Origin: Erysipelotrichia bacterium
Lineage (GTDB): Bacteria; Bacillota_I; Bacilli_A; Erysipelotrichales; Erysipelotrichaceae
Direction: 5' to 3'
DNA: 54,006 nt
Assembly (NCBI GenBank): GCA_018333955.1
Contig: JAGXSD010000044.1
Span: 1-54,006 of the forward strand
Position numbers and translations under genes: made by a program
Notes under the pieces: generated by a model
Told to the model about the DNA's origin: nothing
Seen by the model: only the letters and a program-made list of their open reading frames with translations
The model's database searches: none
Shown: positions 1,828-3,711 of the stretch, piece after piece
How the letters are laid out: every line of letters starts with the position of its first letter
Numbering within the stretch: the first letter of the stretch is position 1

Positions 1828-2586
1828 TTATTCATCCAAATATACACTTTCAAGAACATTGAGTAGTTCATCAAGAGTGACATTGTTTAACTCAAGATTT
1901 CTTAAATCAATGGCTTCATTTTTTATAAGCTCACAAAAATTGATTATTTCTTGTCTTATCGTAACATTTACTTTAACCCTACTACTAGAACTAACATTCA
2001 CTAGCAGTCTTAATACATCATTCTTATGCTTATTAACATCATTGGATGTTACTTTTTCCCCACGTTCTTTCTTTTCTTTATTATCTAACCAAGCCCTGAT
2101 TTTAAAGACAATTAAAGTCTCAATATCAATGATTGAGACATTTCTTATTTCTCTTTTTCTTTTCATCAAGAGCTCATAATAATCATCATTGAGTAAGATT
2201 GCGGAAAGACTAGTGATTTCATCATTCAGAGGTATTTTGGTACATATTTGATGAAGACTCAATGTTACATTTTCTAGACGTCTACAAAACAGTTCAATTT
2301 GCTTAGGATATGCATGGTTTGTAGGATGTGAAAATCGATAGAACTGATGTTTTAGACCTCCCACTTCCTTTCGAATATATCCTCCCAATGTAATAAATCT
2401 TAAAAAATGAAGATAGAAATCTTCATTGATTGCTTCAATAATTAGCACAATATCTAAATCTTTAGTGGCTCTAAATGTTAAACCAAGTTCATCCATTAAG
2501 ATATCACAAGCAGATCCTCCGATAAGGACATAATGATTTGAATAATGATTAAAGTGTTGTGTAAAAACATCTATCCCGTGTACCAT
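1828..2586 (-). CDS. AbiEii-like nucleotidyltransferase, putative type IV toxin
   Basis: A 252-residue protein with the minimal nucleotidyltransferase core: LIGGSACDIL, the GG-S nucleotide-binding motif, followed by ATKDLDIVLI, which carries the paired metal-binding aspartates. This fits the AbiEii/DUF1814-like superfamily used as toxins in type IV toxin-antitoxin pairs. The basic segment with KIRAWLDNKEKK near residue 165 is also typical. Its ATG lies inside the end of the upstream winged-helix gene (16-base overlap), so the two are translated as a pair with the putative antitoxin first, the standard AbiE order. Toxicity is inferred. A non-toxic housekeeping nucleotidyltransferase role is not excluded. 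Confidence 0.7.
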   Translation of the reverse strand: MVHGIDVFTQHFNHYSNHYVLIGGSACDILMDELGLTFRATKDLDIVLIIEAINEDFYLHFLRFITLGGYIRKEVGGLKHQFYRFSHPTNHAYPKQIELFCRRLENVTLSLHQICTKIPLNDEITSLSAILLNDDYYELLMKRKREIRNVSIIDIETLIVFKIRAWLDNKEKKERGEKVTSNDVNKHKNDVLRLLVNVSSSSRVKVNVTIRQEIINFCELIKNEAIDLRNLELNNVTLDELLNVLESVYLDE

Positions 2587-3548
2587 TCTTCCCCCCGCAA
2601 TACTTCATCAAGAGCTTGCTTCATTCTATCATCACGACTATTTTGTAAAGTTAAATATAATGAAACATGATCTACCCTATTATTTGTAGAAAGCAACCTT
2701 GGATTATAATCCCATAGTTGTATTTCATAACAAAATATGTCATTGATCAAATCTTTATTAGTAACGATGAAATCTGATTTCATATCAAACTCGTTTTTAT
2801 AAATCGCATAGACAGGATGTTTTGGACTATTTAATAAAGTTAATTCAGACAAGACACTTTCTCCCGCAATCAGTGCGTTTTCAGGTGCTTGAGTTGTATA
2901 CACCACTTTTTTATAGGGTCGTCTCAAATATTTCTTTGCTTTGTTAAAGTATTCTGGATTTGATATTCTTTGATACACTTTACTACGATTGGTTTTCCCT
3001 TTAATTTCATAAGATAGTAATGTCGCATCAAAGAGCTCATTCAATGCTCGTGAAGCACTCATGGTGGTGAGCCCAGTTTCTTGTGCAAAATCTGTTGCAC
3101 TAATCTTTGAGTCTTTATGATTGTTGAGATAGATAAATGCTAATTGCGCTACAGGAGAGAACACATCAAATTTGTTTTTATTTAGTTCAGGCCCATAATA
3201 AAGGTTAAGTCCTAAGAAAGGTAAATACATTTGACCATCAGTCATAATGAAAGGTACTCTACTTTTTATTAAACTTTTTCTTCTGTATCGAGTTAACCCA
3301 TCATGATGTAAAACTACAGGATACTCTGTATGATGTTTAATTTGTTGGATATGTTTAATGACTTGATCAACACCAGGTAACTCATTCATGCTTTTCATTA
3401 AAATACATTTTTGATTTAATATAGTCATTTCAAAATAGTCATAGTTGCTTCTCATAAACAGTGTTAACTGATGAACATCGCCCCATGCTTTAATATCACC
3501 ATAATCATCAATATTTTCCTTAATATAATTCAGAAGTTTATTTAACAT
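2571..3548 (-). CDS. Winged-helix regulator paired with nucleotidyltransferase (putative antitoxin)
   Basis: A 325-residue protein. The middle (about residues 130-200) holds a MarR-like winged helix, with SATDFAQETGLTTMSASRALNEL as recognition helices followed by a wing rich in K, N and R. The flanks show no motif I know. It starts at an ATG preceded by GGAGG (spacing 8). The gene heads a two-gene unit with the nucleotidyltransferase, and three copies of one repeat sit on its promoter, so negative autoregulation is likely, as for AbiEi antitoxins. It does not look like a canonical AbiEi; the antitoxin role comes from context. Confidence 0.6.
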   Translation of the reverse strand: MLNKLLNYIKENIDDYGDIKAWGDVHQLTLFMRSNYDYFEMTILNQKCILMKSMNELPGVDQVIKHIQQIKHHTEYPVVLHHDGLTRYRRKSLIKSRVPFIMTDGQMYLPFLGLNLYYGPELNKNKFDVFSPVAQLAFIYLNNHKDSKISATDFAQETGLTTMSASRALNELFDATLLSYEIKGKTNRSKVYQRISNPEYFNKAKKYLRRPYKKVVYTTQAPENALIAGESVLSELTLLNSPKHPVYAIYKNEFDMKSDFIVTNKDLINDIFCYEIQLWDYNPRLLSTNNRVDHVSLYLTLQNSRDDRMKQALDEVLRGEEWYTG

Positions 3549-3583
3549 TTGCTACGCCTCCATAATATGACATTGCCACTTAT

Positions 3584-3628
3584 AATATAACATTATTAGT
3601 GTTATATTACAAATACTAATGTTATATT
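3584..3628 (-). promoter_or_regulatory. Promoter and triple operator of the HTH/nucleotidyltransferase pair
   Basis: On the minus strand a TTGTAA -35 (3607-3612) and TATATT -10 (3584-3589) are separated by 17 bases. The nonamer AATATAACA occurs at 3584-3592 in plus orientation and at 3600-3608 and 3620-3628 inverted. The first two form a perfect inverted repeat with a 7-base spacer lying over the -10 and -35; the third is 20 bases, about two helical turns, further upstream. A bound repressor would block RNA polymerase. Confidence 0.7.
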
Positions 3629-3671: not shown

Positions 3672-3698
3672 AAAAAACCCTCCTTTTAATAAGGAGGG
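3672..3698 (-). terminator. Rho-independent terminator of the dehydrogenase/transketolase operon
   Basis: The arms CCCTCCTT (3678-3685) and AAGGAGGG (3691-3698) form an 8-bp stem with a 5-base loop. On the minus strand it is followed by six T. It lies 14 bases past the stop of the last transketolase gene. Confidence 0.9.
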
Positions 3699-3711
3699 CA
3701 TTTACATCTAT

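Follow-up and report, generated by a model that had tools for sequence, protein, structure and literature searches.

A putative four-half-site operator at the promoter of a presumed MenT/AbiEii-like toxin–antitoxin pair

Two overlapping genes on the minus strand of an Erysipelotrichia contig, lying behind a gap of 163 nt, are preceded by a repeated nine-base word, and the locus raises the question of what reads this word, how its copies act together and what the two gene products do. The DNA analysed, hereafter the window, is the whole stretch of 54,006 bases. A first-pass annotation of the same DNA had proposed three phased operators on a 'type IV TA-like' promoter and suggested cooperative autorepression by the winged-helix partner of the pair.

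The gene pair and its presumed products

The first gene (2571-3548, minus strand) encodes a 325-residue winged-helix protein, the presumed autorepressor and antitoxin, and the second (1828-2586, minus strand), which overlaps it by 16 nt, a 252-residue MenT/AbiEii-like nucleotidyltransferase, the presumed toxin. With the presumed antitoxin first and the presumed toxin second in a putative bicistronic operon, the locus resembles a type IV-like TA pair; the earlier label holds for an AbiE/MenAT-like gene pair when 'type IV' is meant loosely; in the strict sense, in which toxin and antitoxin do not touch, the pair is at most a candidate. A terminator scan placed an intrinsic terminator-like site 3' of the upstream gene (3677-3699, minus strand; 4 such sites in the stretch against 0.7 expected). 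The pair therefore probably needs a promoter of its own. A consensus match identified a promoter-like site at 3584-3612 (minus strand; TTGTAA-17-TATATT, with TG before the -10); because the stretch holds 9 promoter-like sites against 12.2 expected, with no excess over shuffles, this call is weak by itself. GGAGG at 3557-3561 (minus strand) was read from the sequence as the probable Shine-Dalgarno sequence.

Elsewhere around the pair, the contig starts with a fragment of a transposase-type integrase core (47-259; rve_3, rve_2), and positions 278-649 encode a 123-aa protein matching just the first 107 of the 247 positions of Nmad3 (nucleotide modification associated domain 3), adjoined by a gene for a lysylphosphatidylglycerol-synthase-like membrane protein (642-1703). 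No type II TA genes were seen in the 163-nt gap of the window. In two congeneric genomes the space between the upstream-gene homologue and the pair is occupied, by a Gp49 gene with an HTH_3 gene, of the type II TA kind (L002:678-1344; here and below, L numbers designate homologous loci), and by an HTH_3 gene (L003:2618-2947). The Gp49 family is HigB-like. Set against the empty gap of the window, these genes suggest that the spot may collect type II TA pairs.

The structure model of the 325-residue protein was confident within domains (pLDDT 92, pTM 0.63) and comprised three of them, all encoded on the minus strand: an N-terminal alpha/beta domain (residues 1-117; 3198-3548), whose best Pfam match, at E 0.068, fell below cut-off; the winged helix announced by the first-pass annotation, predicted at residues 130-194 (2967-3161); and a C-terminal domain (residues 199-325; 2574-2954), whose beginning can be weakly aligned with that of the C-terminal domain of AbiEi. 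The predicted recognition helix covers residues 162-174 (3027-3065), residue 162 being its first. The best structural match of the winged helix was 3r0a_A (Z 10.7, rmsd 2.0, 80 aligned). Among the 50 structural matches listed, solved relatives were found for the winged helix alone, many of them mutually unrelated; the structures of AbiEi and Rv2827c were not among these 50, which the winged helix fills and which are uninformative on the other domains. Profile comparison with 23 canonical AbiEi proteins of the same order gave a weak match (probability 19%, E 0.0012) spanning the winged helix into the C-terminal stretch (SGESALSxxSxLNxP against SxxTALxxxGLSDRxP), the AbiEi and AbiEii alignments being drawn from 23 of 30 control loci. 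We cautiously regard the protein as a putative AbiEi-like core with an added N-terminal domain.

Curated models did not place the 325-residue protein. It scored 16.1 bits with Pfam MarR_2, against a cut-off of 27 (a distant homologue, L157, reached 31.4 bits); in Pfam and NCBIfam it gave helix-turn-helix models below their cut-offs or chance-level matches, and in PADLOC one weak match, to the winged helix. Across the family, NCBIfam returned helix-turn-helix models of other regulators, PADLOC assigned 1 of 42 regulators to AbiEi (E 7.8e-5), and PHROGs linked the winged helix to replication initiation proteins (best E 1.2e-4) and the enzyme to nothing of weight. Pfam AbiEi_2 (PF09952), which presumably stands for COG4861, matched none of the 42 family members at E 0.01 and nothing in the 245 genomes searched from the phylum; of 14 control genomes, that of Corynebacterium glutamicum alone was positive. 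Membership of AbiE by sequence was dropped, as no curated antitoxin model was matched by the window protein. The 20 plasmid homologues listed are labelled 'MarR family transcriptional regulator', 'helix-turn-helix domain-containing protein' or 'hypothetical protein', or are unannotated, and a phage record from human faecal samples (MT835494.1, 21308-22243) encodes a relative with 26% identity over 97% of the protein.

The model of the 252-residue protein (pLDDT 84) matched best a fungal protein, 5uvd (Z 11.7). Behind it came a series of MenT3/TglT entries, at Z 10.4-11.0 over about 200 aligned residues with an rmsd of about 4, and MenT1 entries (Z 8.6-10.4); 6j7r matched at Z 11.0 (rmsd 4.0, 203 aligned), and aminoglycoside and lincosamide nucleotidyltransferases were also among the matches. 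The nucleotidyltransferase motifs GG and RxTxDxD were found, with GG, R, T, D and D invariant in 25 of 25 aligned members. Against canonical AbiEii the profile matched over the motif alone (probability 51%, E 1.5e-4). The score with Pfam AbiEii (PF08843) was 15.0 bits, below the cut-off of 22.5; 5 of 25 family members reached E 0.01 (best 0.0015), and two PADLOC models of AbiEii each picked out a single enzyme of the 25 (E 0.001 and 0.0069).

These matches bear on whether the pair is a TA pair at all. The repressor and its operator could be as we describe them and the enzyme could modify a small molecule or tRNA, in physiology or defence, with the upstream gene merely its regulator; the top rank of the fungal protein and the presence of the antibiotic nucleotidyltransferases besides MenT toxins speak for this, as do 9 of 47 homologous loci with no toxin similarity downstream (two of them with little sequence there). 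The MenT3/TglT run directly behind 5uvd argues the other way. The order of regulator then enzyme, the gene overlap, and an enzyme broken or cut short beside an open regulator gene in several loci (for example L002, L015 and L054) fit TA logic; toxin similarity lay downstream on the same strand in the other 38 of the 47 loci. We regard a non-TA role as the less probable reading, at something like one chance in a handful. A congeneric genome carries a second, decayed copy of the pair (L016, G004:C18), with a 200-aa antitoxin fragment and toxin similarity in two frames.

Four half-sites around one dyad

The word AATATAACA occurs exactly three times in the window, and all three copies, at 3584-3592 (+), 3600-3608 (-) and 3620-3628 (-), lie at this promoter, where the first-pass annotation had seen them. 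A fourth copy with one mismatch, AATATGACA, absent from that description, is found at 3564-3572 (+). Read in the sense of the genes, A (3628-3620) comes first, then B (3608-3600), inverted C (3592-3584) and inverted D (3572-3564), with spacings of 20, 16 and 20 bp, two copies in each orientation and a centre of symmetry at 3596, in the spacer between -35 and -10. Half-site A, the outer upstream one, lies 20 bp upstream of B and above the -35; D, its symmetric partner, lies 20 bp from C and 2 nt from the GGAGG sequence. The inner half-sites B (3600) and C (3584) make up a perfect inverted repeat, with 7 nt between the arms, and sit on the -35 and -10 as had been noted, C over the -10 and B sharing the last two bases of the -35 hexamer. 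Within this repeat, TAAC-N9-GTTA (3588-3604, minus strand, dyad at 3596) is the core kept in homologous promoters.

The four copies look like one symmetric operator with four half-sites. Three independent operators were dropped as a description, since the fourth site completes the symmetry and the same array is found in most homologues; the repeats and the 20-bp offset of the earlier proposal stand, its count of operators does not. That the outermost copy lies on the same face of the helix likewise fits the 20 bp seen in the window, but homologues use 18 to 21 bp and the face is not strictly kept.

Homologous promoters were collected in two sets. Relatives found by protein or profile were present in 14 of 60 near genomes (E 0.001) and in 104 of 315 genomes of the order at E 0.001, many as winged-helix-only matches; at E 1e-15 they turned up in 14 of the 395 class-level genomes and 13 of the 392 phylum-level ones. 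After fragments with no usable gene start and order-level winged-helix-only matches were left out, 47 loci formed the first set, each represented by the 150 nt before the gene start and the first 50 nt of the gene. A blind grid of 3840 combinations of three spacings, in which no word was assumed, had its best mean over the 47 promoters at 20-16-20, and the next three optima (20-14-20, 20-18-20 and 20-12-20) had identical outer spacings. Both outer spacings fell within 18-21 in 35 of 47 best fits, compared with 2 of 29 promoters of canonical AbiEi genes of the same order and 6% of the grid; the two outer spacings agreed within 1 in 37 of 47 homologous and 5 of 29 canonical AbiEi promoters. For this spacing test 29 of the 30 control promoters were used (one reads N), and since control gene starts are longest-ORF starts, some control regions may miss the true promoter. 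When the controls were extended to -200 to +130, the core was seen in 1 of 30 and the core with outer copies in 0 of 30.

Of the 47 promoters, 24 had the exact core TAAC-N9-GTTA and 38 had it with no more than one mismatch; control promoters gave 1 of 30, and shuffles 147 of 940. A near-exact core was absent from the remaining 9. TTG at the -35 position accompanied it in 21 of the 38, and a TANNNT -10 in 33. Thirty-five promoters were usable for the outer sites: L016, L056, L057 and L058 were taken out manually, and others because their core had mismatches or their sequence was too short; L036 and L059 were among these losses although the array is present there in the spacing grid. By the loose rule, 25 of these 35 promoters with a core had the outer sites and 10 failed, against 13.3% of flank shuffles; each outer copy was within one mismatch in 22 of 35. 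The homologous promoter regions were the check proposed along with the earlier annotation, under which repeats missing from all of them would have spoken against it; the array was found at most of these loci.

Individual loci depart from the common layout. An apparent variant is seen by eye in L050, some 40 nt before the gene: its downstream outer half-site is 11 bp (one turn), not about 20, away from the inner one, and its upstream outer half-site is at 20. The distant homologues L056, L057 and L058 have half-sites containing TTATCA at best spacings of 19-15-19 or 19-9-19, do not keep TAAC-N9-GTTA, and carry Tyr instead of Ser/Thr at residue 166 of the regulator. L008 has four perfect half-sites, and no toxin remnant was found downstream of it.

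The second set was retrieved by searching named genomes with the toxin alignment, a contig search with the antitoxin alone having returned no relative. The best 80 of 561 relatives were kept, from 13 named phyla (37 loci from Bacillota, 2 unassigned), and a relative of the 325-residue protein was present at 80 of these 80 toxin loci. Seventy-two were used: L130, L140 and L145 are cut at the 5' end, L094, L100 and L102 were already in the first set, and L112 and L147 are duplicates; near-duplicates such as L138, L144 and L152 were retained. In this set, drawn from the best 80 of 561, the core was found within one mismatch in 61 of 72 promoters (51 exact), against 7.3% of shuffles. Core and outer sites together were found by the loose rule, here up to 2 mismatches over the 8 TAAC bases of the outer copies, in 45 of 72 promoters against 0.65% of shuffles (45 of 61 given the core, against 7.9%; 27 of 72 fail), a rule that admits one poor outer copy in L124, L141, L142, L159 and L165. 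By the strict rule, each outer copy within one mismatch, the figures were 40 of 72, or 40 of the 61 with a core, against 5.3% of flank shuffles, and 32 of 72 failed. Outer spacings from 15 to 26 were permitted; all 45 loose-rule promoters lay at 18-21, most often at 19 (28 promoters). Ten named phyla are represented among these 45 and nine among the 40 strict ones; of the latter, 23 are from Bacillota, and four phyla contribute a single promoter each. Many second-set loci are metagenome bins, and the single-promoter phyla depend on correct binning.

The inner inverted repeat could by itself be the operator, bound by one dimer, with the outer copies as remnants of a promoter duplication or weak accessory sites. 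One group, L011, L013, L038 and L044, keeps just the inner pair, so the outer sites are not always needed, and across the second set the core alone is better kept than the core with both outer copies by either rule. Against this stand the excess of outer copies over flank shuffles in promoters with a core, their confinement to 18-21 bp, and the sequence of the outer sites, which follows that of the inner ones. The half-sites differ among lineages (ATATTAACA, ATCTTAACT, TTTGTAACA and ACGATAACA), and over 25 promoters the outer flanks matched their own inner flanks at 3.41 of 5 bases, compared with 2.43 +/- 0.13 for permuted promoters, the observed agreement being reached in 0 of 10,000 permutations. 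We consider an operator made of the inner repeat alone improbable and retain the reading with four half-sites.

Residue 162 and the probable reader of the half-sites

Covariation between the regulator and its sites points to the protein that binds them. A locus was called G-type when G precedes TAAC in at least 75% of its sites. A rule formed on the first set, Lys or Arg at residue 162 in G-type loci, held in 9 of 9 G-type loci against 2 of 26 others there. The second set, on which the rule had not been based, gave 7 of 7 against 4 of 54; L047 and L052, which lack residue 162, were scored as 'not Lys/Arg' in these counts. Pooled, Lys/Arg162 was present in 16 of 16 G-type loci and 6 of 80 others (p 1e-13, the best of all alignment columns; next 7e-6), and when well-filled columns were scanned against the five half-site positions that vary, residue 162 and the base before TAAC were the top pair (z 10.8; next 8.3); these Fisher and column-scan values ignore descent and keep near-identical loci, 94 loci weighing about 61.

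On a tree, dependent evolution of the two traits was preferred over independent evolution (LRT 33.1, p 1.1e-6, a rough value with some rates at bounds and a quick tree), and the parsimony minimum was 8 changes of the base before TAAC and 10 of residue 162. Independent tree pairs, too few for a sign test, changed the same way in 2.4 of 6 and the other way in none. For the whole recognition helix against the half-site, a partial Mantel test gave a weak relation (r 0.17; 23 of 5000 permutations; 29 of 500 random column sets as good). The exceptions are L049, L054, L110 and L115, with Arg162 and no G-rich sites, and L097 and L099, Lys162 loci with G at just half of their sites. In the window, residue 162 is Thr and the base before TAAC is A. 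A second pairing is suggestive: T follows TAAC in 30 of 41 loci with Gln at residue 171, against 9 of 50 with Glu or Asp.

Because Lys/Arg162 goes with G before TAAC, the 325-residue protein very probably reads the sites itself. This is indirect evidence, drawn from sequence covariation, and to that extent it bears out the earlier proposal that the winged-helix partner would bind the repeats. The sites could instead belong to a different host regulator, not a product of the operon: MarR-type winged helices are common, the window protein matches MarR_2 below its cut-off, and the covariation is the one line of evidence tying the operon's own protein to the sites. That very covariation, between a residue of this protein and a base of its half-sites, speaks against an outside regulator, as does the array shared by homologous loci in nine phyla. 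A scan of the organism's own genome found no second full operator either; besides the operator there were four places with 3 mismatches, against two for a reversed control pattern. We hold regulation by another host protein to be very unlikely. A regulon beyond the pair's own promoter was dropped on the same counts.

A proposed model of autorepression and its relation to known systems

Chance was assessed in the window and in the homologues. No other 9-mer occurs three times without overlap inside 45 nt anywhere in the window, and in 0 of 60 dinucleotide-shuffled windows was any 9-mer found three times inside 45 nt. The four-site score of the window promoter was 51, compared with 34.9 +/- 2.1 in dinucleotide shuffles (0 of 200 reach it; z 7.8, the search over symmetric spacings included); the shuffles behind the core and outer-copy counts of both promoter sets kept single-base content only. 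Of the 47 first-set promoters, 28 had scores that no more than 1 of their own 200 shuffles reached, 33 had scores that no more than 10 reached, and 14 were unexceptional. Although the region is A+T-rich and the word with one mismatch is no commoner than chance across the whole window (22 against 32 expected), the idea that the repeats are a by-product of A+T-rich promoter sequence has next to no chance of being right, since the cluster and its score are reached by none of the shuffles and the core is kept amid G+C-rich flanking DNA, for example in L113, L157 and L163.

We propose, with a probability of about 0.8, that the 325-residue protein, the presumed antitoxin, represses its own MenT/AbiEii-like operon, its winged helix reading a TAAC core at four half-sites arranged with two-fold symmetry, the inner pair blocking polymerase and the outer pair strengthening or tuning the block. 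Autorepression of the pair's promoter by this protein is well supported but indirect. Residues 130-194, through the helix at 162-174, would read each half-site. The inner inverted pair lies inside the -35/-10 spacer, and the outer copies would flank the promoter, one above the -35 and the other over the leader, directly ahead of the Shine-Dalgarno sequence. Because all four half-sites carry the same word, four protomers would be bound: an isologous pair held by two-fold contacts on the inner repeat, and one more placed head-to-tail on each side. The outer copies are direct repeats relative to the inner ones, at 18-21 bp or about two helical turns, and would need a second, head-to-tail contact. 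A filled inner pair would exclude RNA polymerase from the overlapping promoter-like site and filled outer sites would strengthen or tune this block; when repressor is low, the operon would be transcribed and the levels of both proteins restored. The model is supported by the operator's symmetry and conservation, by the promoter-like site overlapping it and, through the covariation, by probable recognition by this helix; from these we infer binding itself, repression, occupancy by four protomers and the activities of toxin and antitoxin.

Two studied AbiE-type systems offer a comparison. In the cited part of the work on AbiE of Streptococcus agalactiae (PMC3985639), the winged helix of AbiEi is N-terminal, and the protein is proposed to bind a pair of 23-bp repeats separated by 3 bp, with a single monomer on each. 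AbiE as described there and the pair in the window have in common a regulator followed by a nucleotidyltransferase, a winged-helix regulator with a C-terminal domain, inverted repeats at the promoter and presumed negative autoregulation. Unlike AbiEi, the window regulator has a domain of about 117 residues before its winged helix, and its operator consists of four 9-bp copies at 20-16-20 instead of a 23-3-23 inverted repeat. Canonical AbiEi promoters of the same order do not show the 20-16-20 layout as a set, and the proteins encoded upstream of canonical AbiEii genes in the order measure 192-231 aa (longest ORF). Since the winged helix is not N-terminal, the Pfam scores lie below cut-off and the operator is not of the 23-3-23 type, we did not file the pair as AbiE.

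For Rv2827c-Rv2826c (MenAT4) of Mycobacterium tuberculosis, the cited part of PMC7319586 describes four promoter sites, all bound by the antitoxin, with negative cooperativity; they are 23-bp repeats in two inverted pairs, with a 13-bp gap within a pair and 4 bp between pairs. The window locus likewise has four sites over the promoter of a DUF1814-type pair, but its sites are 9-bp words nested about a single dyad. As far as these portions of the two sources go, the two antitoxins differ in operator geometry and are opposite in cooperativity (PMC7319586, PMC3985639), the very property that the first-pass annotation had suggested for the window. The predicted fold of the 252-residue protein resembles MenT3/TglT (Rv1045) and MenT1, at an identity of about 15%. 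MenT toxins are reported to make additions to the 3' ends of tRNAs. The winged helix (here 127-210) resembles MarR, MepR and SarA at Z 9-10.7, a range in which many unrelated winged helices score alike; in contrast to the MarR family, the protein has 325 residues, a domain on each side of the winged helix and a score under the MarR_2 cut-off. The pair would work like AbiE/MenAT, with a MenT-like nucleotidyltransferase behind a winged-helix repressor. In a limited search of open papers, the parts covered (including part of PMC11375011) held no description of this antitoxin type or of the four-half-site geometry.

We put at even odds the wider reading that these loci form an unnamed, widespread family of autoregulated nucleotidyltransferase TA pairs, with a three-domain antitoxin, four 9-bp words about one dyad, four protomers and a code readable from sequence (Lys or Arg at 162 for G, otherwise mostly A or T before TAAC), in which each pair would be insulated from its relatives by repressor and operator changing together. 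With such a family recognised, homologues that currently go by 'MarR family' or 'hypothetical protein' could be named. The loci come with about 60 natural operators that have both outer copies (22 of 35 in the first set and 40 of 72 in the second, the latter from the best 80 of 561) and with natural variants at hand: operators with the inner pair only, outer spacings from 18 to 21 bp and a single asymmetric case. They also come with a rule linking residue and base, from which binding can be predicted. With these, it becomes testable how many protomers are needed to shut the promoter, what the outer sites contribute and how related pairs avoid cross-talk.
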